Shown here piece after piece: positions 12,219 through 33,909 of a DNA stretch of 64,000 bases. The DNA comes from Pseudorhodoferax soli (GTDB taxonomy: Bacteria > Pseudomonadota > Gammaproteobacteria > Burkholderiales > Burkholderiaceae_C): NCBI RefSeq assembly GCF_003337555.1, contig NZ_QPJK01000004.1, positions 223,320 to 287,319 on the forward strand, given 5' to 3'. Position numbers and translations under genes: made by a program. The number at the start of each line of letters is the position of its first letter. Positions within the stretch are counted from its first letter, which is position 1. The notes beneath the pieces were generated by a model. That model saw nothing but the letters and a program-made list of their open reading frames with translations, ran no database searches and was not told the DNA's origin.

Positions 12219-12727
12219 GGCCAGGCTGCCGCGGCCTGCGCCGCGGCAGCCGCACGATGGGGCCACGTCCGACGCCGTGCAGCTGCGCTGCGGCCTATGC
12301 TGCCGGCACGATGCACGAAGACCCCGCCCCCCTCCCGGCCCGCCCAGAAGGCCCGCGCCCCCCCGCGCCCCCCGCGCCACCGACGCTGCAGCAACGGCTG
12401 CGGGCCGTCGACCGGCGGCTGCGCCGCGCCATCGCCGAGCGACCGGTGCTGGCCGCCGTCCTGGCCGCCGCAAGTGCCGCGGTGCTCACGCAGGCGGGGG
12501 CCGTGCTGCTGCGGCGCACCCTGGCCGCCAAGCCGCCGCTGCCATTGCCCCGCCGCATGGCCCGCCCGGCCGCCCGGGCGCCGTGGACTGCGTTCCGCTG
12601 GCGCACGGTCGCGGCGCTGCCTGACAGACAAGACCTGCCCACGGCGGATGATGGCGCCAGGTCGTTCTTCTTCAGACGGCTGCAGGCCGCTCGCACCCCG
12701 CGGTGGCCCAACTTCAAAGGACACAAC
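12219..12727. other. Intergenic region with one doubtful open frame
   Basis: About 500 bp without a firm gene. From ATG 12311 a frame runs with no stop straight into the CsbD-like gene. It would add a Pro-rich start, a short hydrophobic helix (PVLAAVLAAASAAVL) and an Arg-rich stretch. It lacks a clear ribosome-binding site and the CsbD-like gene has its own, so I treat it as unproven. Confidence 0.4.
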
Positions 12728-19285: not shown

Positions 19286-19343
19286 TCGCCGAAGGTGACG
19301 ACCCGACCGGCCATCGCCCTTCCGCCGGCCGCGCTGCGCTGCA

Positions 19344-22300
19344 GTGCGTGCCAACGATGGACAGCATCACGTGCAACCTGAACCCCAGACCCCTTCTTCA
19401 CGCGCCTCCGTCTTCGGCCGTCGCGCGTCCGACCATCTGGCGCAGCGCCTCGGAGCCAGCCAGTCCAAGCTGTGGCGCGTGCAGCTCGCGCTCGGCCTGC
19501 CGCTCGCCGGGCTCATGCTGTTGGTCACCGTCGCGTTCACCTCCATCGCCTCGGTCAAGTTCGAGCAGATGGCGCAGGACAACGCCCAGGTCGTCTTCTC
19601 GCAGCACGTCCAGCGCGGCAATGCGCTCCTGCGCGGGCTGATCGACCGTGTGCAGACCCTGGTCGGCATGGAGGCATCGGCCGGCCTGGCGCTGACGCCA
19701 TCGCAGCGCGACCCGCTGCAACGGCAATGGGTCGCGGCCCTCGCGGTGGAGCCCAGCCTGCACGCCTTGCGGGCGGTGCTGAACGACGGCAGGTACTTCG
19801 AGGTCGTTGCACTGCGCGACACCGGTCCGCTGGCCGCGTCGCTGCACGCACCGCCTGCGGCGCGGTTTGCCGCCCGGTCCGTGGAGCCGGGCGAAGGCGA
19901 CGCGCCGCGGCTGCAGACCTGGCGCTTGCTGGACGAGACGGGGCACCTGCTCGCGGAGCGCCGCGACGCCACCCGCCTCGACCCCTGGCAGGACCGGGCC
20001 GCCAATGCCGCTGCCGCACAGACCGGGACCCTGGTCAGCGGCCCCGCGCCATTCTTCAGCACGCGCGAAGCCGGCATCACGGTCGCTGCGCGCCTGCACG
20101 ACGGATCGGGCGTCGTGCTGGCCGAAATCGCCACCAGCGGCCTCGACCAATTGTTCCGGGGGCTGCCCTACCCGCCGCACGTCGCCGGGGGCCTCATCGC
20201 CCCGTCGGGCGAGCTGCTGGTGTCCGGCGCCGGCAGCGGCGCGGTCGCTCCACCCAGCAAGCACGGCGCCGCCGCCGCCGCCGCTGCGGACGAGGACACG
20301 CTGGGCGTGCTGCGCGAGCTGGCGCAATGGACCGGCAGGGGTGTCCACCCGCACGTGGCGACGGTTCCGGTGCACGGAGAGAAGTTCGTGCTCGCGCAAT
20401 CCAGCGTGGAGGTCGGCCCGGGCGAGCCCTGGCGGGTGGTGGCCTATGCCCCACTGCTGGCGTTCTCCAGCTTCATGGTCGCCGCACGCGAGCGCATGAC
20501 GCTGATCGGCGTGCTGGTGCTGGCGACCGCGCTGTGCGCGGCCTGGTGGGTCACGAAGAGGATCGTCGGCGCCCTGGACGACCTGACCCGCGATGCCATC
20601 CGGATCTGCACCCTGGACTTCGGTCCTTCACCGCGCATCCAGTCCCGTCTCAAGGAGTTCAACGCCTTGGCCGACGCGCATTCGGTCATGCGCGAATCCA
20701 TCCGGGCCAGGACAGAGGAGTTGCGGGGCTCACGCCAGCGGCTCGAAGAGCTGATCGCAGCGGGGCTGGCGATGTCGCGCGAGCGCAACCGCATCAACCT
20801 GCTCCAGCAGATCCTGTGGGGTGCCAAGCGCCTGACACGCTGCGATGCGGCCACGCTGTATATCGTGACGGAGAACCGGACGCTGCGCTTTGCCCTGCGC
20901 ACGCGCGACGACTCGCTGCCGCAGGAAGAGATCCCCCTGGTCCGTCCGGATGGATCGGACAACGACCAGTTCGTGTCCACCTACGTGGCCCTGCGCAATG
21001 CGCATGTGGTCATCGACGACGTCTATGCCGAGACGCGGTTCGACCTCAGCGGCACGCGCAGGTTCGACGAGCGCACGGGCTACAGGACGGTGTCCATGCT
21101 GGCGCTTCCGCTGGCACCGCGCGAGGGAGAGGTCATCGGGGTCCTGCAGCTGATGAATGCGCTCGACCCCATCAGCGGCAAGGCCGTTCCCTTCAGCGAA
21201 GAAGACGTGCAGATCGCCTCGGCGCTCGCGGCGCAGGCCGCGGTGTCGCTGGACAACCACCAGTTGGTCCAGGCCCAGGCCGACCTGGTGGATTCCATGG
21301 TCAAGCTGCTGGCCGGTGCCATTGACGCCAAGAGCCCCTACACCGGTGGCCACTGCGACCGGGTGCCGGAGCTGGCGGTCATGATTGCCGAGGAGGCGGT
21401 GCGCGTGGACACCGGGCCGCTGGCCGACTTCCGCTTCGACACCGCAGAGCAATGGCGCGAGTTCCGGATCGGTGCCTGGCTGCACGACTGCGGCAAGATC
21501 ACGACGCCGGAGTACGTGGTCGACAAGGCGACGAAGCTCGAAACGATCCACGACCGGATCCACGAGGTCCGCACACGCTTCGAAGTGCTCAGGCGCGATG
21601 CCGAGATCGACATGCTCAGGACCTTCATCGGCGGGGGCCATGCGGCCGCGGCGTGCGAACGCTTCGAGCAGCAGTGCGCCGTTCTCGAGGAGGAGTTCGC
21701 GTTCGTCGCGCGCTGCAACGTCGGCTCCGAACTCATGGAAGAAGGCGCAGTGGCCCGCCTGCGGGAGATCGGACAGCGCACCTGGATGCGGCATTTCGAC
21801 GACCGGCTCGGACTGGGTCCGCAGGCGGCGCAGGCCATCGAGGCGCTGCCGCCCACCGGGTTGCCGGCCGTCGAACACCTGCTGGACGACAAACCGCAAC
21901 ACATGGTGCCGAGACCTCCGACCCGGGCAAACACTGCGCCCGATCGGTTCAACCTAAAAGCCCCGGAGCTGCTCTACAACCGCGGCGAGCTGCACAACCT
22001 CGCCACCCGCAGCGGCACGTTGACGCCCGAGGAACGCTACAAGATCAACGAACACATCATCCAGACGATCGAGATGCTGGAAGCCATGAACTTCCCGAAA
22101 AACCTGCGCCGGGTGCCCGAGATCGCTGGAACGCACCACGAGAACCTGAGGGGAACCGGCTACCCCAGGGGGCTGACCCACGAACAGCTGAGCGTGCCCG
22201 CCCGCATCATGGCCGTCGCCGATGTCTTCGAAGCGCTGACGGCGGCCGACCGCCCCTACAAGAAATCGAAGCCGCTGTCCGAAGCCGTCCGGATCCTGTG

Positions 22301-22445
22301 GGGCTTCAAGCGGCGCGGTCACATCGACCCGGACGTTTTCGACCTGTTCCTGGCGAGTGGAACGCATCTGCGCTACGCCCGGCGCTTCATGAGCCCGGAG
22401 TTGATCGACGACGTGGATGTGTCGGCCTATCTCGGAAAGATCTGA
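19344..22445 (+). CDS. Membrane sensor HD-GYP domain protein (c-di-GMP phosphodiesterase type)
   Basis: A 1033-residue two-helix receptor. TM1 (about 50-70, LGLPLAGLMLLVTVAFTSIA), a periplasmic Cache-like sensor (about 70-375), TM2 (about 385-402), a HAMP-like linker, GAF (about 475-630) and a C-terminal HD-GYP domain (about 645-1010). The HD motif (WLHDCGKI near 711) and GYP signature (HHENLRGTGYPRGL near 935) are intact. An insert of about 170 residues separates the two parts, longer than in minimal HD-GYP domains. GTG 19344 is the start used; GTG 19371 is possible. It lies 58 bp after the cyclase and is the last gene of the operon, so cAMP production and c-di-GMP breakdown are encoded together. 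Confidence 0.88.
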   Translation: MRANDGQHHVQPEPQTPSSRASVFGRRASDHLAQRLGASQSKLWRVQLALGLPLAGLMLLVTVAFTSIASVKFEQMAQDNAQVVFSQHVQRGNALLRGLIDRVQTLVGMEASAGLALTPSQRDPLQRQWVAALAVEPSLHALRAVLNDGRYFEVVALRDTGPLAASLHAPPAARFAARSVEPGEGDAPRLQTWRLLDETGHLLAERRDATRLDPWQDRAANAAAAQTGTLVSGPAPFFSTREAGITVAARLHDGSGVVLAEIATSGLDQLFRGLPYPPHVAGGLIAPSGELLVSGAGSGAVAPPSKHGAAAAAAADEDTLGVLRELAQWTGRGVHPHVATVPVHGEKFVLAQSSVEVGPGEPWRVVAYAPLLAFSSFMVAARERMTLIGVLVLATALCAAWWVTKRIVGALDDLTRDAIRICTLDFGPSPRIQSRLKEFNALADAHSVMRESIRARTEELRGSRQRLEELIAAGLAMSRERNRINLLQQILWGAKRLTRCDAATLYIVTENRTLRFALRTRDDSLPQEEIPLVRPDGSDNDQFVSTYVALRNAHVVIDDVYAETRFDLSGTRRFDERTGYRTVSMLALPLAPREGEVIGVLQLMNALDPISGKAVPFSEEDVQIASALAAQAAVSLDNHQLVQAQADLVDSMVKLLAGAIDAKSPYTGGHCDRVPELAVMIAEEAVRVDTGPLADFRFDTAEQWREFRIGAWLHDCGKITTPEYVVDKATKLETIHDRIHEVRTRFEVLRRDAEIDMLRTFIGGGHAAAACERFEQQCAVLEEEFAFVARCNVGSELMEEGAVARLREIGQRTWMRHFDDRLGLGPQAAQAIEALPPTGLPAVEHLLDDKPQHMVPRPPTRANTAPDRFNLKAPELLYNRGELHNLATRSGTLTPEERYKINEHIIQTIEMLEAMNFPKNLRRVPEIAGTHHENLRGTGYPRGLTHEQLSVPARIMAVADVFEALTAADRPYKKSKPLSEAVRILWGFKRRGHIDPDVFDLFLASGTHLRYARRFMSPELIDDVDVSAYLGKI

Positions 22446-22472
22446 AGACGCGCGGCTCCCGGCCGTGCCTCC

Positions 22473-24119
22473 TCAGTGCCGCAACGGCGGCGCACCACCC
22501 GCCATGGCCGGCACCAGCACATCGGGTGCGGCCAGACGCAGCATGCGTGCGCAGTTGTCGCACTGGCCGCAGCCCTCGGCCCGCCGCTCACCCTCCAGCG
22601 CCTCCTGCAGCACCTGCCAGCGGCAGGCGCCGCTTTCGGCGTAGTCCACCATGGACTGCAGCTTGCGCTGCTTCTCCTGGCGGCGCGCCTGCTCGGCCTG
22701 CACCAGGGCTTCCAGCGTGGGCGCGCCGCGCGGCGCCGTCGCCGCCAGCCAGCCGGCGCGCCCCTCGGCCGCACGTGCCTTGCGGCAATGGCGGGCCTGC
22801 AGCAGCAGCGCCAGCAGGGCGGCGATGCGGGCCCGCGGCAGGCCGGTGTCCTGCTGCAGCTGCGCGAGGTCGGTGGGCGTGTCGGGCGACAGCGCGGCCA
22901 GCACGCGCGCCAGCTCGGCCTGCGTGTACGCCCGGCCGCCCAGGAAGAAGTGCTGCACCGAGCGGTCGCGCCGCTGGTACAGCAGCACGCAGCGCGCGGG
23001 CAGGCCGTCGCGGCCGGCGCGGCCCGACTCCTGGTAGTAGGCGTCCAGGCCGGCGGGCATCTGGTAGTGCACGACGAAGCGCAGGTCCGCCTTGTCGATG
23101 CCCATGCCGAAGGCGTTGGTGGCCACCATCACCCGCGTGCGGCCCTCCATGAACGCATCCTGTGCGGCATGGCGCTCGGCGGCGCGCAACTTGCCGTGGT
23201 ACAGACCCACGGACAGGCCCTGGGCAGCGAGCGCGGCATGCACCTCCTCGGCCGCGCGCACGGTGGCGGTGTAGACGATGCCCGGCTCCTCGCAGCGCTG
23301 CAGGGTGTCCTGCAGGGCCTGCAGCTTGTCGTCCGCCTCGGTCAGCGGCACCACGGCGTAGTGCAGGTTGCCGCGCCAGATGCCGGCGTCCACGGTGCCG
23401 CTGCGCGCGATGCCCAGCAACCGGGCGATCTCGGCCGCGGTCTCCGGTGGCGCCGTCGCGGTGAGCGCCAGCAGCGGCGGCTGGCCGAGCGCGCGCAGTG
23501 CCGCGCCGATCTCCAGGAATGCAGGCCGGAAGTCATGGCCCCATTCGACGATGCAGTGGGCCTCGTCGACGACGACGAGCGCGATGCGGCAGCGGCGCAC
23601 CAGCGCGAGGAAGTCCGGGTCGGCCAGCCGCTCGGGCGTCACGAGGACGATGCGTGCGCTGCCATCGGCCAACGCCGCCTCGGCCGCGGCCAGGGCCTCG
23701 GCATCCAGGCTGCTGTTGAACTCGACGGCGGCCAGGCCATGTGCGCGCAGCTTCTCGCACTGGTCCTTCATGAGTGCGATGAGCGGCGAGACCACCAGCG
23801 TGCAGCCCGGCAGCATCAGCGCCGGCAGCTGGTAGCACAGCGACTTGCCGGCGCCCGTGGGCATGATGGCCAGCGTGGACTGGCCGGCCAGCACGCGCGC
23901 GATCACCTCCTGCTGGCCGGGGCGCAAGTCCTGCAGCCCGAACACCTCGTGCAACAGGCGCTCGATCTGGCGGGCGCTGCGCTGTGGCAGCGGCGTTGCA
24001 GTGGCCGCGCGTCTGCGGTGCGGCCTGCGGCGCGGTTCGGCTTCGGCCGGCGGCGCCACCACCGTGGCAGCGACCGGAGGGACCGGAACAGGCTCCGGCA
24101 CGGGATGGGCTTGCAGCAT
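22473..24119 (-). CDS. recQ: RecQ-type ATP-dependent DNA helicase
   Basis: The 548-residue protein unwinds DNA 3' to 5' during recombination and repair. Walker A is PTGAGKS (residues 87-93), the motif II box is DEAH (185-188), and motif VI is QESGRAGRDG. The zinc-binding region has a Cys and a late CGQCDNC cluster (residues about 500-530). There is no HRDC domain, so it is of the short RecQ type; many proteobacterial RecQ proteins are about 600 residues. The N-terminal 48 residues are Pro/Arg-rich and poorly conserved. ATG 24119 is chosen as the last start before the helicase core with that extension. Confidence 0.88.
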   Translation of the reverse strand: MLQAHPVPEPVPVPPVAATVVAPPAEAEPRRRPHRRRAATATPLPQRSARQIERLLHEVFGLQDLRPGQQEVIARVLAGQSTLAIMPTGAGKSLCYQLPALMLPGCTLVVSPLIALMKDQCEKLRAHGLAAVEFNSSLDAEALAAAEAALADGSARIVLVTPERLADPDFLALVRRCRIALVVVDEAHCIVEWGHDFRPAFLEIGAALRALGQPPLLALTATAPPETAAEIARLLGIARSGTVDAGIWRGNLHYAVVPLTEADDKLQALQDTLQRCEEPGIVYTATVRAAEEVHAALAAQGLSVGLYHGKLRAAERHAAQDAFMEGRTRVMVATNAFGMGIDKADLRFVVHYQMPAGLDAYYQESGRAGRDGLPARCVLLYQRRDRSVQHFFLGGRAYTQAELARVLAALSPDTPTDLAQLQQDTGLPRARIAALLALLLQARHCRKARAAEGRAGWLAATAPRGAPTLEALVQAEQARRQEKQRKLQSMVDYAESGACRWQVLQEALEGERRAEGCGQCDNCARMLRLAAPDVLVPAMAGGAPPLRH

Positions 24120-24226
24120 GCGCTTCCTTGGCGGCAATGACGATGCGGCGAGCTTGGCGTGGCCGCCGCGCCGGCCACGTAGGAGGGGCGCCCGAAGGCG
24201 CGCCGGCTCCCGCTCTGCCGCCCGGC

Positions 24227-24532
24227 TCAGCGCTCCGCGTTGCGCTTGCGCGTGGCGGCTGCCTTCTTGGCCGACGCGGAGCGTTCCTCGGCCGTGCGCG
24301 AGGCCGATGCATGGCCGCCCGCGCGCCCGCCCTTCTTGGAGGGCGACTTGTCCACGGCCTGGCCGCGGCCCGAGCCGCTCTTCTTGCCGCCGCCGGTTTC
24401 CTTGTTGACCGTGGCCCAGGCGCGCCGCTCGGCCTCGCCCTCGGCCATGCCGCGCTGCTCGTAACCCTTCTCGATGTGCTCGGCCTGCCGCTTCTGCTTG
24501 TCCGTGTAGGACGACTTGTCGCCTCTTGGCAT
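24227..24532 (-). CDS. Small basic protein, plasmid-stabilisation-like family
   Basis: The 101-residue protein starts MPRGDKSSYTDKQKRQAEHI and continues with GYEQRGM and an AWATVNKETGGGKKSGSG segment. The C-terminal half is rich in Lys, Ser, Ala and Gly (SAKKAAATRKRNAER). This layout matches a widespread small-protein family that is often labelled plasmid stabilisation protein or stress-inducible KGG-like. It may bind nucleic acid by its basic tail, but no activity is known. A strong AAGGAGAG ribosome-binding site precedes ATG 24532. It is downstream of the glycosyltransferase unit and upstream of recQ on the same strand. Confidence 0.8.
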   Translation of the reverse strand: MPRGDKSSYTDKQKRQAEHIEKGYEQRGMAEGEAERRAWATVNKETGGGKKSGSGRGQAVDKSPSKKGGRAGGHASASRTAEERSASAKKAAATRKRNAER

Positions 24533-24631
24533 GGTGCTCTCCTTGCTTGGCTGTGCGGACCCCGTGTCCGCATCGCATCCAGTCTGGTGCGCAGCGGCGC
24601 GTGCCGTGTCCGACAGCGGCACGCCTGCGCG

Positions 24632-25336
24632 TCAGACGGCGCGCGGCGCGCCCGCGCCACGCCCCGGCAGCACCAGCGCCCGCGACATGCTGCGCAGGGC
24701 CTCGCCGAAACCGGCCGGTGCCCGCGCGTCCACCCGCGCGCTGGTCCACACGCGCGGCTGCGCGCTGAACGCCACGGCCACGCCGGCTGCCTGCAGCGCG
24801 TGCACCAGGGCCACGTCTTCGCTGGTGCACAAGGGCGCGAAACCACCGGCAAGGCGGTAGGCGTCGGCCGTCATGCCCAGGTTGGCGCCGTGGATGTGGC
24901 AGTGGCCGTCAACCGGGACGTACTCGCTCTCGAAGGCGCGCGCCAGCCGCTCGGCCAGCGCACCATGGGCGCTCCAGTCGCGCACCCACACGCAGCCGCA
25001 CACGGCCTGCGCGCCCAGGCCCAGCTGGGCGGCGAGCCAGTCGTCGGCGACCAGCGTGTCGGCATCGGTGAAGGCCAGCCAGCGCGCGCCCCTGGCCAGC
25101 AGCAGCTCGGCACCGGCCTGGCGCGCCCGGCCGACGTTGCGGTGCGGCAGCGACAGCGTGTGGGCGCCCTGTGCGGCAGCGCAGGCGGCCGTGCCGTCGC
25201 TGCAGGCGTCGGCGACGACCACGATCTCCACCGCTTCGCCCTGCAGGGCCGGATGGCCCGCCGCCACCTGCACGGCGGCCACGGCCGCGGCGATGTGGGC
25301 GCGCTCCTCATGCGCGGGAATCGCCACCCCGATCAC
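24632..25336 (-). CDS. Family 2 glycosyltransferase
   Basis: The 234-residue GT-A fold enzyme starts with GVAIPAHEERAHIAAAV. It has VVVADACSDGT for nucleotide-sugar binding, the metal-binding FTDADTLV (DxD), GANLGM and CTSEDVALVHAL with the ED base motif. There is no membrane helix, so it is cytosolic or peripheral. GTG 25336 overlaps the TGA of the methyltransferase gene (GTGA). It is the last gene of a four-gene unit. The sugar and acceptor are unknown; the neighbours (deacetylase, methyltransferase, acyl-CoA dehydrogenase-like) suggest building a small modified glycoside or glycolipid. Confidence 0.85.
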   Translation of the reverse strand: MIGVAIPAHEERAHIAAAVAAVQVAAGHPALQGEAVEIVVVADACSDGTAACAAAQGAHTLSLPHRNVGRARQAGAELLLARGARWLAFTDADTLVADDWLAAQLGLGAQAVCGCVWVRDWSAHGALAERLARAFESEYVPVDGHCHIHGANLGMTADAYRLAGGFAPLCTSEDVALVHALQAAGVAVAFSAQPRVWTSARVDARAPAGFGEALRSMSRALVLPGRGAGAPRAV

Positions 25337-25923
25337 CGGATGCCCTCGCGTTGCGCCACCGAGCGTGCATCGCGCGCCCACACGCGCAGGCAGAAATCGT
25401 CCTCGCTGTGGACCACCAGGGGCGCCAGCCCGATGGCGCCCAGCAGGGCGTGCACTTCTTCCGTGGGGCAGGCGCGTTGCGCGAACGGCGCCAGCCAGTC
25501 GCAGGCGACGAGCACGCCGTCGGCGTCCAGGCTGTCCGCGCAGTGGCGGGCCAGCGCCTGCACCTGCGCCGCGGGCAGGAAGTAGCCGACCTCGGACAGC
25601 ACCACGAGATCGAAGCGCTCGCCCACGGGCCAGTCCTCGGGCAAGCGGTGCTGCGCCAGCCGCACCTGTGGCAGCGCGGCGGTGCGCTGGCGCGCTGCGC
25701 GCAGCGCGTGCGCGGAGAAGTCGGCGGCCAGCACGCTGTCGCAGCGCGCGGCCAGGCCGGGCGTGAGTTCGGCCGTGCCGCAGCCGGGCTCGTAGCAGCG
25801 CCGAAAGCGCTGGCGCGGCAGGCTGGCCACCAGCAGCGCGCGCTTGCGCCGCTCGTACCAACGATCGCGCGTGCCGTAGGGGTCGTCGGCGGCGGCGTAC
25901 AGGCCGTCGAAATAGCGGCGCAT
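25333..25923 (-). CDS. Class I SAM-dependent methyltransferase (NodS-like)
   Basis: A 196-residue Rossmann methyltransferase. YFDGLYAAADDPYGTRDRWYERRKR precedes the SAM motif CYEPGCGTAELT, followed by VLAADFSAHALRAAR and FDLVVLSEVGYFL. It matches NodS-type proteins, a group that includes an N-methyltransferase of aminosugars in Nod factor synthesis; that would fit a deacetylase next door. ATG 25923 has a GGAGA close by. The frame is open back to GTG 26088, which overlaps the PIG-L stop exactly as at the other junctions of this unit. That longer start would add 55 residues encoded by the 63-bp tandem repeat, so the true start is uncertain. Confidence 0.84.
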   Translation of the reverse strand: MRRYFDGLYAAADDPYGTRDRWYERRKRALLVASLPRQRFRRCYEPGCGTAELTPGLAARCDSVLAADFSAHALRAARQRTAALPQVRLAQHRLPEDWPVGERFDLVVLSEVGYFLPAAQVQALARHCADSLDADGVLVACDWLAPFAQRACPTEEVHALLGAIGLAPLVVHSEDDFCLRVWARDARSVAQREGIR

Positions 25924-25945
25924 GCTCTCCGGAGCGGCTTCCGGC

Positions 25946-26088
25946 GGCCCGGCGGTGCGCACTGGAGGACCTTCGCGCTGCGCGCTACGGTGCTGAGCAC
26001 CTTGGGGCGGCCCGGCGGTGCTCACTGGAGTACCTTCGCGCTGCGCGCTACGGTGCTGAGCACCTTGGGGCGGCCCGGCGGTGCTCAC
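25946..26088. repeat. Tandem repeat, 63-bp unit, two copies plus a partial third
   Basis: Units at 25946-26008 and 26009-26071 differ at only a few bases, and a third starts at 26072 and stops at the PIG-L stop codon. Each unit contains a small hairpin (GGTGCTGAGCACC). The 63-bp length is 21 codons, and on the minus strand the frame stays open through all copies into the methyltransferase. Confidence 0.9.
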
Positions 26089-26837
26089 GCGAACACCACC
26101 TCGAATGGGCGCTGCGCACGCGCGCGCATCGAGGCGCGCAGGATCGGCGTGTGCGGGCAGGCGGGGTCGTGCTCCCACTGCGAGGCGAAGGCTTGGAGCG
26201 CCGCGCTCTTGCGCGCCACCGCCTGCGGCGACAGAGCGACCAGGTGGGCCTGCGCCCAGGGCATGCGCGCATCGCCGCACTGCGCCCAGTGCCAGCCCCA
26301 GACCGGCACCTCGTAGATGCGGGCGCCCACCTGCGCGGCGGCGGCCCGCGCGGTGCGCCCCGTGGCTTCGTGGTCGGGATGGCCGTCCAGCGCCCAGGTG
26401 GTGAACACGCGGTCCGACGGCCTGAGCGTGCGCAGCAGCAGCGCGTGCAGCACGTCGGCCTGCGCAGCCACGCGGCCATCGGCCAGGCCGGCGCGCAACA
26501 CGGCCGCGTTGCTGCCCAACCGGGCCAGGGCCAGCCGGGTCTCGGCGCGGCGCCGCGTCGCCAGGCGGCGTGGCGGCCAGTGCGGGGAGCCGGCATGGCT
26601 GGCCTCGCCATCGGTCACCGCCACGACCAGGGCACTGCGGCCCAGGGCCGCCGCGTGCGCCAGCAGGCCGCCCACGGCAAGCACTTCGTCGTCCGGATGC
26701 GGCGCCACCACGACGGCGCGTGCGCCCGACGGCAGCAGCGCCTGCGGTGCGAGATGCGGCAGCGCGCGCGCCTGCAGCCAGCGCTGCCACTGCAGCTCGG
26801 GCGTGCCATCGCCGGCGTCGATGCGGCGGCTGCTCAC
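26085..26837 (-). CDS. PIG-L family deacetylase (LmbE-like)
   Basis: The 250-residue zinc hydrolase has the family motif APHPDDEVLAVGG (two Asp and His for zinc and catalysis) and DGHPDHEATGR (third ligand region). PIG-L/LmbE/MshB enzymes remove an N-acetyl or similar N-acyl group from glucosamine-containing substrates. GTG 26837 overlaps the stop of the upstream acyl-CoA dehydrogenase-like gene (GTGA), showing translational coupling. It is the second gene of the four-gene unit. Substrate unknown; an N-acetylated aminosugar is the family-based expectation. Confidence 0.88.
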   Translation of the reverse strand: MSSRRIDAGDGTPELQWQRWLQARALPHLAPQALLPSGARAVVVAPHPDDEVLAVGGLLAHAAALGRSALVVAVTDGEASHAGSPHWPPRRLATRRRAETRLALARLGSNAAVLRAGLADGRVAAQADVLHALLLRTLRPSDRVFTTWALDGHPDHEATGRTARAAAAQVGARIYEVPVWGWHWAQCGDARMPWAQAHLVALSPQAVARKSAALQAFASQWEHDPACPHTPILRASMRARAQRPFEVVFA

Positions 26838-27838
26838 AGCGGCCAAGGGTCGGCCTCGCGTTCGAGCGCGCGGCCCAGCGCCGCAAGGTCGCGTTCGGCG
26901 TGGCTCTGGCGCATGAAGATGGGCAGGTCGGCCATCGCCCGCGCCAGAGCCCGCTGCTTGCACAGCGGGCCGGCGCCCAGCGCGCGGCCGGCATGCCGCA
27001 GCACATCGTCGGCGCCCCGCTCGACGGCCAGGCGCACGCGCAAGGCCCAAGCCTGTGCGTCTTGCGCAGGGTGGCGGTCGATCCAGGCGGCGGCCTCGCG
27101 CAGCAGGGCCGCGCAGGCGCCCAGCGCCACGTCGATGGCGCCCAGGTGCGCGCGCTGGTGCGCATCGGGTTCGCGTTGCGCCAGGGCAGTTTGCACGGCG
27201 CGGCCGATGCCCACGGCACCACCCCACCAGCAAGCGGCAATGCCGGCGCCGCCGTGCCAGAAGCCCGGCCGGCGCACATAGGCGTGGGGCGGGCCGACCG
27301 GGGTGGCCAGCGCGTCGTCGAACAGCACGTCCACGCTGCAGGTGTCCGCCATGCCGACAGCGGCCCAGCCTTCGTTGCCGATCTGCACGCCGGGCTGGCG
27401 CAAGTCCACCGCGGCCAGGCAGGGCTCACCGGCCGCGTTCCAGCCGCTGACCAGCGCATGGTCGAGCAGCGCCGCGCCGGAACACCAAGCCTTGCGGCCG
27501 CGCAGGCGCAGCCGCCCGTCGCTCCGGGGCAGCATGCTCAGCCGGGCTTGTGGCGGCTCGGCACACCAGGTGCCCCAGGCACCGGCGCGGGCGGGGCCGC
27601 AACCCAGTTCCTCGTGGATGGCCAGCGCGTCGGTGTGGCCCTCGTAGAGCTTGGCGAGCGAGAGATCGCGCCCGGCCACGGCCGCGAGGCGCCGCCAGCG
27701 CTCCAGCGTCTGCCCGCCACCGGGTAGCGGCAGGGGTTCGGCTCCGGCGGCGACCAAGGCCTGCAGTGCGCGGGCCAGGGAGCCATGCTCCGTACCGGCC
27801 AGCGCATCGTCCATGCCAAAGCCGGGCCGGGCGTTCAT
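26834..27838 (-). CDS. Acyl-CoA dehydrogenase-like flavoprotein, short form
   Basis: A 334-residue protein with the acyl-CoA dehydrogenase fold, visible in RLRLRGRKAWCSGAALLDHALV and the C-terminal helical bundle. Typical family members have about 380 residues, and the N-terminal helical domain is short here (MDDALAGTEHGSLARALQAL). The usual catalytic Glu region is not obvious, so it may be a flavin oxidase or desaturase acting on a carrier- or sugar-bound group, not beta-oxidation. It is the first gene of the unit PIG-L, methyltransferase, GT2. Its stop overlaps the next start. Confidence 0.75.
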   Translation of the reverse strand: MNARPGFGMDDALAGTEHGSLARALQALVAAGAEPLPLPGGGQTLERWRRLAAVAGRDLSLAKLYEGHTDALAIHEELGCGPARAGAWGTWCAEPPQARLSMLPRSDGRLRLRGRKAWCSGAALLDHALVSGWNAAGEPCLAAVDLRQPGVQIGNEGWAAVGMADTCSVDVLFDDALATPVGPPHAYVRRPGFWHGGAGIAACWWGGAVGIGRAVQTALAQREPDAHQRAHLGAIDVALGACAALLREAAAWIDRHPAQDAQAWALRVRLAVERGADDVLRHAGRALGAGPLCKQRALARAMADLPIFMRQSHAERDLAALGRALEREADPWPL

Positions 27839-27848
27839 CGCCGCGCGC

Positions 27849-28172
27849 TCAGGCGGTCTCGTTTTCCACGCTGTGCTTGAGCTGCGAGGCCTTCTGGTGC
27901 GCGTCCTGCACGGCCTGCTTGAGGGCCGGGTCGACCTGGCCGGCGTTGCGGCAGGCTTCCATGGCGCGGTCGGCGGTCTGTTCGATGTCCTTGACGGCCT
28001 GCGTGAGTTCGGCCTTGTCGGTCAGCGCGCGTTTGGTGCGGGCCTGCTGGTGCAGGTCCTGCACGGCCTGCTGCAGCTTGGCGTCGGCCTGGCCGTTCTT
28101 GAGCGCTGCCATCGCCTTGTCGGCTGCGGATTCGATGCCGTCGATGGCTTGCTGGAGTGTTTGTGCGTCCAT
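27849..28172 (-). CDS. Helical protein of unknown function with internal duplication
   Basis: The 107-residue, highly charged, all-helical protein contains two copies of one motif: LQQAIDGIESAADKAMAAL...LQQAVQDLHQQA (residues 5-43) and LTQAVKDIEQTADRAMEAC...LKQAVQDAHQKA (about 56-95). There is no signal peptide or membrane helix. AAGGAC precedes ATG 28172. It could form a coiled coil or four-helix bundle like small stress proteins. I recognise no family. It lies 10 bp upstream of the acyl-CoA dehydrogenase-like gene in the same direction, so readthrough into that unit is possible. Confidence 0.7.
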   Translation of the reverse strand: MDAQTLQQAIDGIESAADKAMAALKNGQADAKLQQAVQDLHQQARTKRALTDKAELTQAVKDIEQTADRAMEACRNAGQVDPALKQAVQDAHQKASQLKHSVENETA

Positions 28173-28506
28173 GGTGATGTCCTTGGGGTTGATGTGAGGA
28201 ACAAATACCATCCCATGGGCCCGGGAGCCTCGGTGCGCGACGCGGGCCCTAGCGCGTGTCAGGCAATGGCTGACGCGGCTCCGCTGCGACAGTTCACAGC
28301 CTGTCGGACATCCCTGCGCTGGCCTGGCCTGCTGCGGTCGCCGCTGCAGCAGTTGGGGCATTCGTTCTCCATCGCTTGCTTTCGCGTCGAGAGAATGCGG
28401 GAGCGGATACAGCATCAGCCTAGCGAAATGAAGTCTGGCCTTCTGGCATGAACCAAGCACGCTTCGGAAAACACATTCTTTTGCGCCAGATGAGGCCGCC
28501 CTGCCC
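28173..28506. other. Intergenic region, nothing recognised
   Basis: 334 bp between the MFS gene end and the helical-protein start. It should hold the promoter of the helical-protein gene, but I see no convincing promoter, hairpin or coding signal. Frames through it look like non-coding translation. Confidence 0.4.
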
Positions 28507-29703
28507 TCACGGGCAGCCGGTCGGCAGCCCTTCCGCAGGCCGCCGTCCACCGCTTCCCGAAGCGCGGACCTGCAGTGCGAACGCGCCAGCCAGCAGCACC
28601 AGCAGCACCGGCGCGAAGGCCACGACGCCGACGACCTGCAGCAACACCCCGCCGGCGATGCCGCCACCGGCGATCGCGGCGTTCCAGGTGGTGACGAGCA
28701 TGGACTGGGCGACGTCGGCCTGCTCGGCCGCCGCGTCGGCCAGCGCGGTCTGGAACAAGGTGGCGGCACCGCCGAAGGCCAGGCCCCAGGCCGCCAATGC
28801 GGCGAACATCCATGGCGCGGATTGCGTCGCCAGCGCCAGCACCGCCACGGCCGCGCCGAACACGGCGGTGCTGGCGAGCGAGAGGCGCTGCAGGTGCCGG
28901 TCGACCAGCAGACCGGTCAGCCCGATGCCGGGCAGCGCCGCCAGGCCGAAGACCAGCAAGGCCCGGTCCACCTGCGCGCCCAGGCCGCGTGCGGCGAGGT
29001 AGGGGGCGATGTAGGTGTAAAGCAGGTTGTGCGCCAGCACATAGGCCAGCACCACGAGCAGCACCGGCCGGACACCGCGCATGCGCAGCACGCCGGCCAG
29101 TGGCCGGCGTTGGCCGGCCTGCTGGCCCGCGAAGTCCGGCACGCTGAGCCGGATCCACGCGAGCAGGCCCAGCGCCAGCGCGCTGGCCGCCCAGAAGCAG
29201 GCGCGCCACCCGGCCCACTGCCCGAGCCAGCCGCCCGCGGGCACGCCCAGCGACAGGGCCAGCGGCGTGCCCGCCATCGCGACCGCGATGGCGCGCCCCC
29301 GCAGGCCCGGGCCCACCAGCCTGGCGGCGTAACCCGCGAGCAAAGCCCAGAGCAGGCCGGCCGACATGCCGGCCACCAGCCGCGCCACCATGGTCCAGCA
29401 GAAGCTGGCCGACCAGGCCGTGACGCTGTTGGCGAGCACGAAGCCCGCCATGGCCGCCATCAGCAAGGGGCGGCGGCGCATGCCGCGCGTGGCGGCCACG
29501 AGCGGGATCGCGGCGAGCAGCGAGCCCAGTGCGTACGCGGTGACGGTCTGGCCCACCCAGGCCTGCGAGACCTGCAGATCGGCAGCCATCTGCGGCAGCA
29601 GCGCGGCGGGCAGCGCCTCGGTCAGGATGGTGACGAACGCGGCCGTTGCGAAGGCGAGCAGCGGCGACCAGGGCAGGCGCTCGGCGCCGGTGGCGGCCGT
29701 CAT
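28507..29703 (-). CDS. MFS transporter, drug/metabolite efflux type
   Basis: The 398-residue permease has about twelve hydrophobic helices. It carries the motif-A-like loop GMRRRPLLMAAM between helices 2 and 3 and a helix 5 region GTPLALSLGVPAGGWLGQWAGWR (antiporter motif C style). It belongs to the DHA1/YdhP-AraJ group of proton-driven exporters. ATG 29703 overlaps the stop of the serine hydrolase gene (ATGA), so the two are cotranslated. A divergent LysR-type gene begins 110 bp upstream of the hydrolase and probably controls the pair. Substrate unknown. Confidence 0.87.
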   Translation of the reverse strand: MTAATGAERLPWSPLLAFATAAFVTILTEALPAALLPQMAADLQVSQAWVGQTVTAYALGSLLAAIPLVAATRGMRRRPLLMAAMAGFVLANSVTAWSASFCWTMVARLVAGMSAGLLWALLAGYAARLVGPGLRGRAIAVAMAGTPLALSLGVPAGGWLGQWAGWRACFWAASALALGLLAWIRLSVPDFAGQQAGQRRPLAGVLRMRGVRPVLLVVLAYVLAHNLLYTYIAPYLAARGLGAQVDRALLVFGLAALPGIGLTGLLVDRHLQRLSLASTAVFGAAVAVLALATQSAPWMFAALAAWGLAFGGAATLFQTALADAAAEQADVAQSMLVTTWNAAIAGGGIAGGVLLQVVGVVAFAPVLLVLLAGAFALQVRASGSGGRRPAEGLPTGCP

Positions 29704-30899
29704 GCGCGCAGCCCCTGGTAGACGGCGTCGCGCAGGTCGTTGACGAAGCGGCCGTGCATGCCTTCGTACAAGGTGTTGGTCAGGGCCACCACCGTCAGCG
29801 CCCTGGGCCGGTCCACGAACCAGGAATGGCCGTAGGCGCCGCCCCAGCGCCAGGTGCCGCGCGACTCGGGCGACGCGGCGGCGGCGGGATCGCGCAGCAC
29901 GGAAAAGCCCAGGCCGAAGCCCAGGCCCGGGCCGGCGGCCAATTCCGCGCCCTGGGTCTGGTCGCGGCCCATCTCCGCAAGCACGGCCTCGGGCAGCCAG
30001 CCGTCGGCGCCGGTGCGCAGCGCCTCCAGCAGGCGCAGCAGGTCGCCGGCCGTGCCCGCCATGCCGGCGCCGCCGGACGGGTAGGCTTGGCGGTCGAAGA
30101 TCCGGCCGGGGCTGAAGGCGATGCCCACCGTGCCATCGAAGGGCGCTGCGACCTCCGCCTCCTGCAGCCGGTGCGGGCCGGCCGTGCCGTTCACGTAGGC
30201 CGTGGCCATGCGCCCGGGCGCGTCGCAGAAGAAGCCGCTGTCCACCATGCGCAGCGGCTCCGTCACCAGCGCACGGACGGCATCGGGCAGCGTCTGCCCC
30301 GTCACGCGCTCGACCACCGCGCCCAGCACGTCGGTGGCCAGCGAGTAGGCCCAACCCTTTCCGGGCGGGTACAGCAGCGGCACCCGGGCGATGCGACGCA
30401 GGTTCTCCGCGAGGTCGATGCCGCTGGCGTCCATGCCATCGGACACACCGGCCTGCGCATGGGGACCGTTGCCGTCGGGCTCGAAGAAGCGGTAGCCCAG
30501 ACCGGCCGTGTGGCTGAGCACTTGGCGCAGCGTCAGCGTGGGCGCCGTGCCATCCGGCAGGCGTGGCTGGAACGCGGGCAGCCAGCGCGTCACCGCATCG
30601 TCCAGAGCCAGGCGGCCCTGGGCCCACAGCACCAGCGCGGCGGCGCTCACGATGGGCTTGCTGGCCGAGGCCAGCCGGAACACGGTGTCCAGCGCCATGG
30701 GGCGCCGCGTCTCACGGTCGGCCCAGCCGATCGCGCGGCCGTAGCGTGGCTGCCCGTGCTGGTGCACGCGCACGACGGCACCGACCAGGCGCTGCTCCTG
30801 CAGCGCACTGGCGAGCACGGCGTCGATGCCGGATGCGAGACGATGGTCAAGCGGGTGCGCCAGGGCTTCTGCGGGCCGTGCGGGAAGAGGGAAAGTCAC
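29700..30899 (-). CDS. Serine hydrolase, beta-lactamase class C/esterase EstB-like
   Basis: The 399-residue protein has the SxxK motif SASK in FRLASASKPIVSAAALV. A Tyr element lies in GWAYSLATDVLG, with YSL in place of the YxN of true AmpC enzymes. GGAYGHSWFVD is in the place of the KTG box, as in family VIII esterases. No clear signal peptide is seen from GTG 30899, so a cytoplasmic esterase or peptidase is more likely than a periplasmic beta-lactamase. The frame is open further upstream, but that part has no homology and overlaps the promoter region. Coupled to the MFS exporter. Confidence 0.82.
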   Translation of the reverse strand: MTFPLPARPAEALAHPLDHRLASGIDAVLASALQEQRLVGAVVRVHQHGQPRYGRAIGWADRETRRPMALDTVFRLASASKPIVSAAALVLWAQGRLALDDAVTRWLPAFQPRLPDGTAPTLTLRQVLSHTAGLGYRFFEPDGNGPHAQAGVSDGMDASGIDLAENLRRIARVPLLYPPGKGWAYSLATDVLGAVVERVTGQTLPDAVRALVTEPLRMVDSGFFCDAPGRMATAYVNGTAGPHRLQEAEVAAPFDGTVGIAFSPGRIFDRQAYPSGGAGMAGTAGDLLRLLEALRTGADGWLPEAVLAEMGRDQTQGAELAAGPGLGFGLGFSVLRDPAAAASPESRGTWRWGGAYGHSWFVDRPRALTVVALTNTLYEGMHGRFVNDLRDAVYQGLRA

Positions 30900-31012
30900 G
30901 GAATCTGTCCTTTCTTGACATGACCCCAGGACCTTAGAAGCCCCGCGATCAAAGAAAAAGCCGGGTAGAGTTCCGCGCTGCCAGGACAGGGATGTCCGCA
31001 ATGGGAGTGGCG

Positions 31013-31987
31013 ATGGACAGCCTCAACGGCTTCGTGGTGTTCGTGCAGGTGGCGCAGGCGCGCAGCTTCGCCGGGGCCGCCCGGCTGCTGGGCGTGTCGC
31101 CCTCGGCGGTTGGCAAGAGCGTGGCACGGTTGGAGCAGCGCCTGGGCGTGCGCCTGTTCCACCGCAGCACGCGCAGCATCGCGCTGACCGCCGAGGGCCG
31201 GCTGTTCCTCGAACGCAGCCGCCGGATCCTCGACGAAATCGAGGCCGCCGAAGGCGAGCTGTCGCAGGCGACGGCTGCGCCGCGCGGCCGGCTGCGCGTG
31301 GGCTTGCCGCTGGTCAGTTCGCTGGTCCTGCCCGTGCTGGCGGACTTCATGCGCCAGTACCCGGAGATCGAGCTCGACCTGGATTTCTCCGACCGCCTGG
31401 TGGACATCGTCGAAGAAGGCTTCGACGCCGTGGTGCGCACCGGCCAGCCCGCCGACTCGCGGCTCAGCGCGCGGCTGCTCGGCGCGTTCAGCCGCATGCT
31501 GGTGGCGTCGCCCGACTACCTGGCCCGGCACGGCACGCCCGCCACGCCGCAGGACCTGGCGCAGCACCGCTGCCTGCACTACCGCTACGCCCACAGCGGC
31601 AAGCTGGAAGTCTGGCCGCTGCCGGCCGCGCCCGACGGCCGCGAGACCGTGCTGCCGACCTCGATGATTTGCAACAACATCGAGACGCGCCTGTGCTTCG
31701 CCCTGCAGGGGCGCGGCATCGCCTGGCTGCCCGACTTCGCGGTGCGCGAAGCGCTGGCGGCCGGGCGGCTGGTGCCCGTGCTGCCGGCGCAGGTGCACAG
31801 CCGGGGCGTGTTCCACGTGCTCTGGCCTGCCGGCAGGCACATGACGCCCAAGGTGCGCGCGCTGGTCGATTTCCTGGCCGACCATGTGTTCGCGCGGCAG
31901 GCCTCGCCCGTGCAGCGTGCGTCGAACGCTGGCCTCAGCCGCGCAACAAGGGCAGCAGTCGCTGCCCCTGCCGTTCGATCTCCGTGA
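31013..31987 (+). CDS. LysR-type transcriptional regulator
   Basis: The 324-residue regulator has an N-terminal winged helix-turn-helix (residues 4-63: FVQVAQARSFAGAARLLGVSPSAVGKSV) and a LysR substrate-binding domain of the CrgA/AaeR group (FSDRLVDIVEEGFDAVVRTG). It is divergent from the hydrolase-MFS pair, the typical arrangement for control of the neighbour. The last 25 or so residues (SNAGLSRATRAAVAAPAVRSP) exceed the usual LysR length and are encoded by sequence that on the other strand is a monooxygenase remnant, so the original stop may have been lost. Confidence 0.88.
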   Translation: MDSLNGFVVFVQVAQARSFAGAARLLGVSPSAVGKSVARLEQRLGVRLFHRSTRSIALTAEGRLFLERSRRILDEIEAAEGELSQATAAPRGRLRVGLPLVSSLVLPVLADFMRQYPEIELDLDFSDRLVDIVEEGFDAVVRTGQPADSRLSARLLGAFSRMLVASPDYLARHGTPATPQDLAQHRCLHYRYAHSGKLEVWPLPAAPDGRETVLPTSMICNNIETRLCFALQGRGIAWLPDFAVREALAAGRLVPVLPAQVHSRGVFHVLWPAGRHMTPKVRALVDFLADHVFARQASPVQRASNAGLSRATRAAVAAPAVRSP

Positions 31988-32107
31988 GGTACGGCGTGTC
32001 CGACAGCATCAAGTGCGTGGCCCCGAGCGCCTGGCACTTGCGCAGCGAGGCCAGCACCGCGGCGGCCGCGCGCACCAGCCAGGTCGTCCTGGCCCATGTC
32101 GTCGTCG
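31935..32107 (-). pseudogene. C-terminal remnant of an LLM-class flavin monooxygenase (SsuD-like)
   Basis: On the minus strand a frame ending at 31935 reads SLRKCQALGATHLMLSDTP, then YLTEIERQGQRLLPLLRG and stop. This is the characteristic end of alkanesulfonate/LLM flavin monooxygenases (LGATHFVLSDTPYL.EIER type). No start or upstream core is present; the TPR-glycosyltransferase ends at 32142. It overlaps the 3' end of the LysR gene on the other strand. Confidence 0.55.
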
Positions 32108-32141
32108 GGATGGATCGACGGCGGTGGCCTCGCGCGGCGAC

Positions 32142-33761: not shown

Positions 33762-33909
33762 GCGGGGCGGTGGAACAGGTCATGGGCGACGTCGGCCAGC
33801 CGACGGACTCGGGAAAGAGCCGGCATCGTAGCCAGTGCGCGCGCGGTGCGTGCGCCCGGGCAGCGCGCGCCGCGCCTCCGGGCGGGGCCATGGTCCACGC
33901 GGACCGACG

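Follow-up and report, generated by a model that had tools for sequence, protein, structure and literature searches.

What do the four genes packed at positions 24632-27838 of this Pseudorhodoferax soli DNA make, and do they belong together? In the window, the whole stretch of 64,000 nucleotides analysed, the interval is filled by four minus-strand ORFs, encoding a flavoprotein, a PIG-L protein, a methyltransferase and a GT2 glycosyltransferase. The unit and its flanks are arranged as follows.

27852..28172, minus strand: small upstream ORF, 107 aa; flank common to near relatives only (5 of 80 loci)
26834..27838, minus strand: flavoprotein of the ACAD fold, 334 aa, first gene of the unit (weak Pfam match, profile and fold matches)
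26085..26837, minus strand: predicted PIG-L (LmbE-type) zinc de-N-acetylase, 250 aa, its GTG start lying within a GTGA overlap (Pfam)
25932..26097, no strand: 63-bp tandem repeats carrying a REP-like 29-bp palindrome, located at the methyltransferase 5' end
25333..26088, minus strand: NodS-like class I SAM methyltransferase, 251 aa from GTG 26088
25333..25923, minus strand: methyltransferase core with alternative start, 196 aa from ATG 25923
24632..25336, minus strand: small GT2 glycosyltransferase, 234 aa, its GTG start lying within a GTGA overlap (Pfam, model)
24227..24541, minus strand: small downstream ORF, 104 aa; flank found in 4 of 80 loci

The four genes are joined by three GTGA stop/start overlaps, as the earlier note had read them; the ORFs are present and the letters at all three junctions agree, the third overlap (PIG-L/methyltransferase) holding if methyltransferase translation starts at 26088. 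From there the frame is open across 165 bases made mostly of the 63-bp tandem repeats. With up to 2 mismatches allowed, the 8.16 Mb genome contains the palindrome 10 times, two copies being those at the methyltransferase 5' end, and the reversed control not once. Tight junctions are also found in 80 related loci, collected with the flavoprotein as bait: flavoprotein and PIG-L genes overlap in 61 of 64, methyltransferase and GT2 genes by 4 bases in 44 of 58, counts that are approximate because start codons of related loci were picked by script. A scan of 24200-28500 for sigma-70-type promoters gave 0 matches (mean of shuffles 0.1), an outcome of little weight. No match above curated Pfam or NCBIfam cut-offs was found for the upstream small ORF, and none at E 0.01 for the downstream one.

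The four genes form a real conserved unit, beyond chance. Rare co-occurrence in other genomes, named in the earlier note as the sign against such a unit, was looked for and not found. All four genes reside in 55 of the 80 loci, and flavoprotein, PIG-L and methyltransferase in 66, 11 of which lack a GT2 gene within the fetched stretch; the flavoprotein stands alone in 2, one at a contig end. Searched with separate baits, all four families are found in 5 of 293 genomes of the host's class, that of the window included, forming one cluster each time. Flavoprotein matches above 100 bits occur in 6 of the 293, the same 5 and a sixth (G384), in which flavoprotein and PIG-L genes lie at a contig start. 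Chance neighbours are ruled out, since the separate baits lead to clusters in the same genomes. Divergence is correlated between the four proteins (distance matrices, r = 0.78-0.88; 58 loci plus the window), at values none of which was attained in 2000 permutations. Linkage is kept when the order changes. With A for flavoprotein, D for PIG-L, M for methyltransferase and G for GT2, the order is GADM in 6 of 80 loci and DGAM in 1; Roseivivax and Sphingomonas also have GADM, and Legionella lytica features otsB-GH65-DMGA. Among plasmid records hand-picked for spread of genera, distant versions of the cassette, some rearranged, are carried by Acinetobacter, Comamonas, Legionella, Sphingomonas, Roseivivax and Actinobacteria. 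Plasmid carriage had been overlooked in the earlier note. Carriage by phages was considered and set aside: the phage collection yields only two matches, both under the name Acinetobacter phage MD-2021a, and bacterial metabolic genes are found in the stretch examined from one.

Three of the proteins fall into recognizable families. Motif counts refer to alignments of 59 rows for the flavoprotein and 46 for each other protein, window included, from which near-duplicates and some loci were removed by hand; the methyltransferase alignment keeps one out-of-frame row (L009, 24% identical to the window protein). The PIG-L protein scores 86.8 bits against Pfam PIG-L (cut-off 28.2). Its profile matches diacetylchitobiose deacetylase at 61 bits, as well as the BshB and MshB structures, and the motifs PHPDDE and DGHxDHE are found in 46 of 46 rows, window protein included; PHPDDE and H-x-D-H are the metal-site motifs of PIG-L. 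It stays below the NCBIfam equivalog cut-offs for BshB1 (63.1 vs 182.5), BshB2 (37.1 vs 195.25), MshB (21.1 vs 224.35) and Mca (15.9 vs 277.15). The methyltransferase matches Pfam Methyltransf_12/25 at 44 bits and NodS at 28.6 (cut-off 24), and its profile finds 4isc_A at 241.9 bits and the NodS structure 3ofj at 79.2; the NCBIfam NodS equivalog cut-off is not reached (42.2 vs 300). The GT2 protein scores 38.7 bits against Pfam Glycos_transf_2 (cut-off 23.3). Its model (pLDDT 92.7) is a compact globular domain with the GT-A fold, the best VIA-align match to GT2-type enzymes having Z 22.0 and rmsd 2.2 over 171 residues. It falls below the cut-off for the arsenosugar glycosyltransferase TIGR04283 (52.9 vs 182, NCBIfam); H-x-H-x-H-GAN and DAD are found in 46 of 46 rows. 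The predicted catalytic motifs are intact in the window and nearer relatives. In distant forms of the cassette, 3 of 11 other PIG-L proteins give no simple-pattern match to the metal motif, and 3 of 10 other GT2 proteins none to the histidine loop.

The flavoprotein, described as acyl-CoA dehydrogenase-like in the earlier note, has flavin monooxygenases rather than dehydrogenases as its nearer relatives in sequence, and the fold does not separate the two. Its sole Pfam match is Acyl-CoA_dh_M, 25.2 bits, under the family cut-off of 33.3; no further domain is seen at E 0.01, and the N-terminal, middle and C-terminal domain set of acyl-CoA dehydrogenases is not found. The best solved profile matches are TdsC/DszC (47-52 bits) and MsuC (42), followed by the cysteine dehydrogenase ColB1 (37), the sugar nitrososynthase DnmZ (34.5) and isobutyryl-CoA dehydrogenase (25). 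The motif K-x-W-C-S-G is found in 58 of 59 rows, and alignments reveal the C-S-G loop also in TdsC, DszC and MsuC; as a yardstick of group D, this flavin-side loop is drawn from the present alignments rather than from a published definition. The AlphaFold model (pLDDT 90.9) has the ACAD fold and matches ACADs and monooxygenases alike in VIA (Z 29.7-31.5, rmsd 2.6-3.2, 312-326 residues); absence of a family from the VIA lists is no evidence against that family. The protein is probably a flavin monooxygenase of group D type. Sequence (sub-cut-off Pfam score, profile matches) does not favour a simple fatty-acid dehydrogenase, with which the fold is compatible. It is somewhat unlikely that the flavoprotein is a dehydrogenase, the last step then being a desaturation or amine oxidation that hands electrons to an acceptor instead of an oxygenation. 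In line with this reading, true ACADs match equally well in fold, 7 of 59 family members match PF00441, the C-terminal domain of dehydrogenases, and the profile matches ColB1 and isobutyryl-CoA dehydrogenase; TdsC, DszC and MsuC as best solved matches, and the loop common to them and to nearly all family rows, argue for the monooxygenase.

PIG-L is the sole missing member in 12 of 80 loci. In 14 genomes with PIG-L-less loci (G138 and G592 apparently being one genome, and locus L052 left out) the cassette PIG-L profile has no match at 1e-5 in 12, and weak matches in 2, so that de-N-acetylation may be dispensable. Other PIG-L and NodB-type proteins reside somewhere in all 14, the NodB-type numbering 2 to 11 per genome; among those listed, no NodB-type protein lies within 100 kb of the cassette in the three PIG-L-less genomes in which its position is known. 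A scan for divergent PIG-L proteins, NodB-type ones falling outside it, covered 17 loci devoid of the cassette PIG-L and found one, in Cupriavidus basilensis (L147), about 3 kb from the flavoprotein-methyltransferase-GT2 genes. In genome G158 a divergent PIG-L lies by coordinates just downstream of the cassette, the stretch fetched for its locus (L093) being too short to include it. In Rubrobacter a NodB-type (Polysacc_deac_1) deacetylase adjoins the other three genes.

In relatives the cassette recurs among stress-related genes. Plasmids of Comamonas antarctica and C. endophytica feature the order otsA-cassette-otsB, and ots, treYZ/malQ/glgX or catalase genes lie nearby in further lineages, ferritin-like genes as well as catalase in some loci. 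This trehalose, glucan and catalase context had been overlooked in the earlier note. Stress markers are found near 24 of 80 cassette loci and 0 of 20 control stretches (Fisher p 0.0028), the markers having been picked after looking, among genes adjoining a part of these very loci, with matches under 60 bits (40 for small proteins) uncounted. A second set of cassette regions has a marker in 3 of 10. The other 56 of the 80 loci carry none of the chosen markers, nor do the flanks of the cassette in the window, so its stress link rests on homology. Regulation by nearby PAS hybrid kinases was considered and dropped (27 of 80 loci, 5 of 20 controls).

Acinetobacter flavoproteins are 36-38% identical to that of the window. 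In A. baumannii, four genes identified here by names and order (ACICU_02432-02435) are marked as one operon and repressed 31-62-fold together with otsAB and catalase in Table 2 of PMC5660220, part of a single mutant comparison in that other genus. The four blsA-adjacent genes of A. baumannii in the relevant part of PMC6240043 match the context of a locus (L169) whose proteins match the four family profiles at 219-332 bits. The genes are listed or drawn in the parts of both papers considered, where no function is proposed. Several acyl-CoA dehydrogenases are lowered in the drying transcriptome of Acinetobacter Tol 5, according to passages of PMC13130816, a point against the stress reading if one of them is that of the cassette; the cassette is unmentioned in these and in passages of PMC10651043. 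Among the openly available papers listed by the literature searches, none assigns a function to the four-gene combination, as the earlier note had supposed. Four A. baumannii locus tags that might be those of the cassette, A1S_2227 to A1S_2230, are absent from the main text of the papers checked.

Chances are about even that the four genes are one biosynthetic cassette for a small soluble aminosugar-containing glycoside serving in a general (drying, osmotic, oxidative) stress response. In the order of steps that we infer, acting on a single shared substrate, the GT2 enzyme would link a small acceptor to an N-acetylated amino sugar, from which the PIG-L enzyme would take off the acetyl group; the NodS-like enzyme would methylate the freed amine, and the ACAD-fold flavoenzyme would carry out an oxidation of the product, acting most likely on nitrogen or a neighbouring atom as a reduced-flavin/O2 monooxygenase; this oxidation chemistry and the protective role are likewise presumed. 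The chemistry resembles aminosugar tailoring, as proposed earlier, in the matches of the methyltransferase to NodS (79 bits) and of PIG-L to diacetylchitobiose deacetylase (61 bits). Of the two products then suggested, a small soluble glycoside fits better, and a glycolipid has no specific support.

A stress-time tailoring of a surface glycan or glycolipid head group is unlikely. GT2, deacetylase and methyltransferase genes are common in envelope modification, and 13 of 80 loci have lysylphosphatidylglycerol-synthase-like genes nearby, 11 cardiolipin-synthase-like ones. However, the former are limited to 8 Pseudomonas and 5 Burkholderia/Paraburkholderia loci and the latter to 8 Pseudomonas and 3 other loci, Pfam matches reveal no membrane-anchored glycosyltransferase, flippase or polymerase among the four proteins, and the GT2 model is compact and globular. 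Decidedly unlikely is a low-molecular-weight redox buffer or thioglycoside, built with a logic like that of bacillithiol and mycothiol, in which glycosyl transfer and deacetylation by PIG-L would be followed by methylation and by flavin S-oxidation or desaturation. The match of PIG-L to BshB1 (63 bits, below cut-off), the sulfur-compound names of the model SfnB and of DszC/TdsC and MsuC, the closest oxygenases with solved structures, the related cysteine dehydrogenase ColB1, and the catalase and ferritin-like neighbours are consistent with it; the lack of a cysteine-adding enzyme among the four genes, the low scores against the BshB1/BshB2/MshB/Mca models and the presence of GT2, where BshA and MshA are GT4 enzymes, speak against it. 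Four unrelated stress enzymes sharing an operon for co-regulation, with no common compound, are improbable: gene order is shuffled, members are sometimes missing and neighbours vary between lineages, but the linkage of the four families persists through great divergence and from replicon to replicon, other stress genes being present in some loci and absent from others.

Stress survival of Gram-negative bacteria is usually credited to trehalose, betaine, hydrophilins and catalase. A cassette found on plasmids and chromosomes, linked across phyla, sometimes set inside a trehalose operon and co-regulated with trehalose genes in published data points to a further protective or signalling metabolite; if so, four enzyme families annotated so far only generically would gain a function. 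A bolder reading, tentative and on balance rather unlikely, is an undescribed, horizontally mobile stress-metabolite pathway common to Proteobacteria and Actinobacteria. Its product would be an N-methylated amino sugar glycoside, flavin-oxidised and possibly N-oxygenated, whose synthesis accompanies that of trehalose or even starts from a trehalose-pathway sugar, as suggested by the otsA-cassette-otsB operons.

Several known systems share parts with the glycoside cassette. Like nod factor tailoring (NodB plus NodS), it pairs a de-N-acetylase with a NodS-family methyltransferase, and the Rubrobacter version adjoins a NodB-type deacetylase; in contrast, its deacetylase is usually PIG-L, its methyltransferase lies far under the NodS cut-off (42 vs 300), a flavoenzyme is added and Pfam finds no chitin-oligomer synthase among the four genes. 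With BshA-BshB and MshA-MshB it shares the joining of a glycosyltransferase to a PIG-L de-N-acetylase, the BshB and MshB structures being matched; it differs in having GT2 instead of GT4, no cysteine ligase, and scores far below equivalog cut-offs. By sequence the flavoprotein is closest to group D flavin monooxygenases (DszC, MsuC; the sugar nitrososynthases DnmZ, KijD3, 3mxl), which are also among its best fold matches, TdsC, DszC and MsuC having the C-S-G loop; identity, however, is about 20%, the flavoprotein measures 334 aa against about 390-450, and no flavin reductase is among the four genes. The otsAB and treYZ-glg stress loci have the cassette next to or inside them in several genera, and otsAB is co-regulated with it in A. 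baumannii (Table 2 of PMC5660220), whereas no trehalose enzyme is among the four proteins and most of the 80 loci, and the window, lack such a neighbour. Further counterparts are ACICU_02432-02435 and the blsA-side genes of A. baumannii, which in the parts of PMC5660220 and PMC6240043 considered are the same four gene types in the same order.

The four minus-strand genes of the cassette form a real, conserved and mobile operon, which likely has a single metabolic product and is linked to stress genes in several lineages. Its position in the window, and that of a repeat array inside it, are:

27838 to 24632, minus strand: four ORFs, coding for flavoprotein, PIG-L deacetylase, methyltransferase and GT2
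25932-26097: REP-like 29-bp palindrome within 63-bp tandem repeats

The earlier note had the genes joined by GTGA stop/start overlaps, one of them only if the methyltransferase starts at 26088, and GTGA is indeed found at all three junctions, with TGA ending one gene and GTG opening the following one. None of the four proteins reached a cut-off in the NCBIfam search. The genome holding the window measures 8.16 Mb (30 contigs); among named genomes, the nearest cassette relative is that of Pseudorhodoferax sp. Leaf265 (flavoprotein 90% identical). At the METHYLTRANSFERASE start, the methyltransferase frame is open from GTG 26088 (251 aa). Residues 1–55 are largely encoded by the tandem repeats, and the conserved core begins at ATG 25923. 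The palindrome occurs at 10 genomic sites at ≤2 mismatches, with 20 strand-wise matches, whereas its reversed control gives 0. In the related strain L005, the same place of the gene holds a tandem insert that resembles this one without being identical, and diverged tandem inserts are found there in loci L006 and L007; among the relatives compared, L009 lacks the insert. The N-terminal extension is probably a neutral insertion.

Relatives were collected by scanning 84,980 species genomes with the flavoprotein profile. The scan confirmed 442 related places, of which the best 80 were kept, a set that leans toward close relatives. The order flavoprotein-PIG-L-methyltransferase-GT2 is found in 46 of these best 80 loci. 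PIG-L is missing from 12 and GT2 from 11; GT2 occupies the first position at 6, and is reversed and some kb off at 2. PIG-L and GT2 precede the flavoprotein at 1 locus, and the flavoprotein lacks the other three at 2, one of them at a contig end. To counter the bias of a single bait, each of the four profiles was run separately on one shared set of 293 genomes from the class, among them that of the window. Matches were found in 7 (flavoprotein), 20 (GT2, five above 70 bits), 6 (methyltransferase) and 9 (PIG-L) genomes. A survey of the kind suggested in the earlier note finds the four families clustered, on one contig and within ~4 kb, in five of 293 genomes (G000, G507, G569, G571, G469). In genome G384, flavoprotein and PIG-L lie at a contig start. 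Other matches are weak or solitary, as a flavoprotein in G327 (85 bits), a methyltransferase in G531 (97 bits), three PIG-L (75–80 bits) and GT2 proteins below 64 bits. The distribution is patchy, the cassette flavoprotein being found in 12/300 genomes of the order and 14/150 of the family. The four proteins give correlated distance matrices (r 0.78–0.88), as expected for jointly inherited genes, host relatedness contributing too. Variovorax sp. J22R133 carries a solitary flavoprotein gene and, on another contig, a fuller cassette (L012 and L032). In Pseudorhodoferax aquiterrae one flavoprotein gene is split between two ORFs (L038, 5961-7046), and a second, whole copy in the same strain resides in L006.

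The flavoprotein matched 38 records of a plasmid collection. Sixteen were examined, and 14 had a usable gene table, Nostoc and A. baumannii pDETAB15 being the exceptions. All four families reside in 8/14 plasmids, from Acinetobacter johnsonii, A. soli, Pandoraea faecigallinarum, Comamonas (two), Legionella lytica, Roseivivax and Sphingomonas. Three families are found in 5/14: Pandoraea vervacti (split GT2), Kitasatospora and Roseomonas (both without GT2), Rubrobacter and Cupriavidus (both without the usual PIG-L). The Methylobacterium plasmid has the flavoprotein only. Homology is backed by profile scores, except in A. soli, judged by annotation. The P. vervacti GT2 (L002, 11274-11991) is split across two overlapping frames and looks broken; the P. 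faecigallinarum copy is whole. Two records labelled Acinetobacter phage MD-2021a also match the flavoprotein (L169). The phage label is probably wrong, since the stretch from one record carries ordinary bacterial metabolic genes.

PIG-L may be exchanged. In Rubrobacter, a NodB-type polysaccharide deacetylase (92 bits) adjoins the flavoprotein; in Cupriavidus basilensis, a divergent PIG-L (34.5 bits) lies ~3 kb from the cassette, adjoining a catalase gene; in genome G158, a divergent PIG-L (12054-12437) is directly downstream, judged by coordinates. These exchanges suggest that a deacetylation step matters. Against this, neighbourhood scans found no PIG-L-type gene near the cassette in Achromobacter and Paraburkholderia loci; PIG-L and NodB-type proteins encoded elsewhere in genomes lacking the cassette PIG-L may or may not take part. 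A divergent PIG-L subfamily with an SPHxDDAVxSCG-type motif (as in L147, 3955-4677) is found near the cassette or elsewhere in such genomes. The Rubrobacter plasmid L140 (4904-9555) encodes, with the polysaccharide deacetylase, an extra pyridine-nucleotide flavoprotein, which could be a flavin reductase partner.

Stress genes flank the cassette in several lineages. In two Comamonas plasmids otsA, the four genes and otsB follow in sequence; otsB and otsA lie immediately upstream in Comamonas koreensis, after GT2 on the opposite strand in a Massilia MAG and G269, and ~3 kb away in G056. At nine Pseudomonas loci the cassette immediately follows glgX of a malQ-treYZ-glgX locus, and in 8 of the 9 CBS, endonuclease-like and cls genes are on its other side; Pseudomonas L066 and L080, among the best 80 loci, lack such placement. 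Neighbours include catalase, DUF421 and otsAB (A. johnsonii plasmid), otsA (A. soli plasmid), a Dps-type protein and catalase (Sphingomonas), manganese catalase and a universal stress protein (Roseivivax). Stress markers are present at 24/80 loci versus 0/20 control stretches, taken from the same contigs of nine cassette-bearing genomes (Fisher p 0.0028), which is support, not proof, as the markers were picked from these same neighbourhoods after looking. Trehalose/glucan genes alone are found at 11/80 loci versus 0/20 controls, and markers in 3/10 further cassette regions; window stretch 19001-34000 has none of the list. An FMN-binding (FMN_bind_2) protein gene, possibly for a flavin partner, lies near the cassette in 6/80 loci (Xenophilus and relatives; e.g. 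L021, 6899-7639). Ferritin-like domain genes adjoin it in two Comamonas plasmids (L146, L171) and Kitasatospora (L138).

Expression data are found in a table of PMC5660220, where A. baumannii ACICU_02432-02435, marked as one operon, are named glycosyltransferase, SAM-dependent methyltransferase, LmbE protein and putative acyl-CoA dehydrogenase-related protein. By their names, order and number, these would be the cassette genes. They are down 31- to 62-fold in two colistin-dependent mutants, along with otsA (27–50-fold), otsB (12–35-fold) and catalase (22–31-fold); the table text tallies 33 lowered genes. The same four gene types are reported adjoining blsA in a passage of PMC6240043, a context corresponding to L169, whose proteins match the cassette profiles. 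BfmR, which by the title of PMC6181384 mediates drying tolerance, raises trehalose-synthesis genes, and PMC8982409 describes the P. syringae treY/Z operon; the relevant passages of either paper do not mention the cassette.

The encoded enzymes are of known types. PIG-L metal motifs are intact in 46/46 alignment rows, and by profile the nearest solved relatives are diacetylchitobiose deacetylases (61 bits) and TT1542, ahead of deacetylases from antibiotic and thiol pathways. The methyltransferase is closest to 4isc_A (242 bits), titled only 'Methyltransferase' and presumably from Pseudomonas syringae. The next solved match is NodS (79 bits), which agrees with the NodS-like enzyme initially proposed; NodS N-methylates deacetylated chitin oligomers. 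Against solved structures the GT2 profile reaches at most 21.6 bits, which leaves no close relative by sequence; in fold, the protein groups with GT2-type enzymes (best Z 22.0). All 46 of 46 rows share an H-x-H-x-H-GAN loop rich in histidine; a pattern check did not find it in the Roseivivax, Sphingomonas and Rubrobacter proteins. The flavoprotein profile scores highest with TdsC/DszC (47–52 bits), MsuC (42) and a pair of chains with the name acyl-CoA dehydrogenase type 2 (41), of which one bears the title flavin-containing monooxygenase, followed by ColB1 (37), DnmZ (34.5), KijD3 (30.6), nitrososynthase 3mxl (25.6), isobutyryl-CoA dehydrogenase (25.4) and short-chain ACAD (22.8). KijD3, DnmZ and 3mxl oxidise amino groups on nucleotide-linked sugars. 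The acyl-CoA dehydrogenase domain is common to group D monooxygenases, among which N-hydroxylations are described (PMC6165268). An amine-freeing enzyme, an amine-methylating one and a relative of flavoenzymes that oxidise amines and sulfur are together compatible with one amino-sugar substrate, whose amine would be freed by the deacetylase, methylated by the methyltransferase and oxidised by the flavoenzyme; order of steps, acceptor and final structure of the product are inferred. What is new about the cassette is how it combines known enzyme types, not the kind of enzyme.
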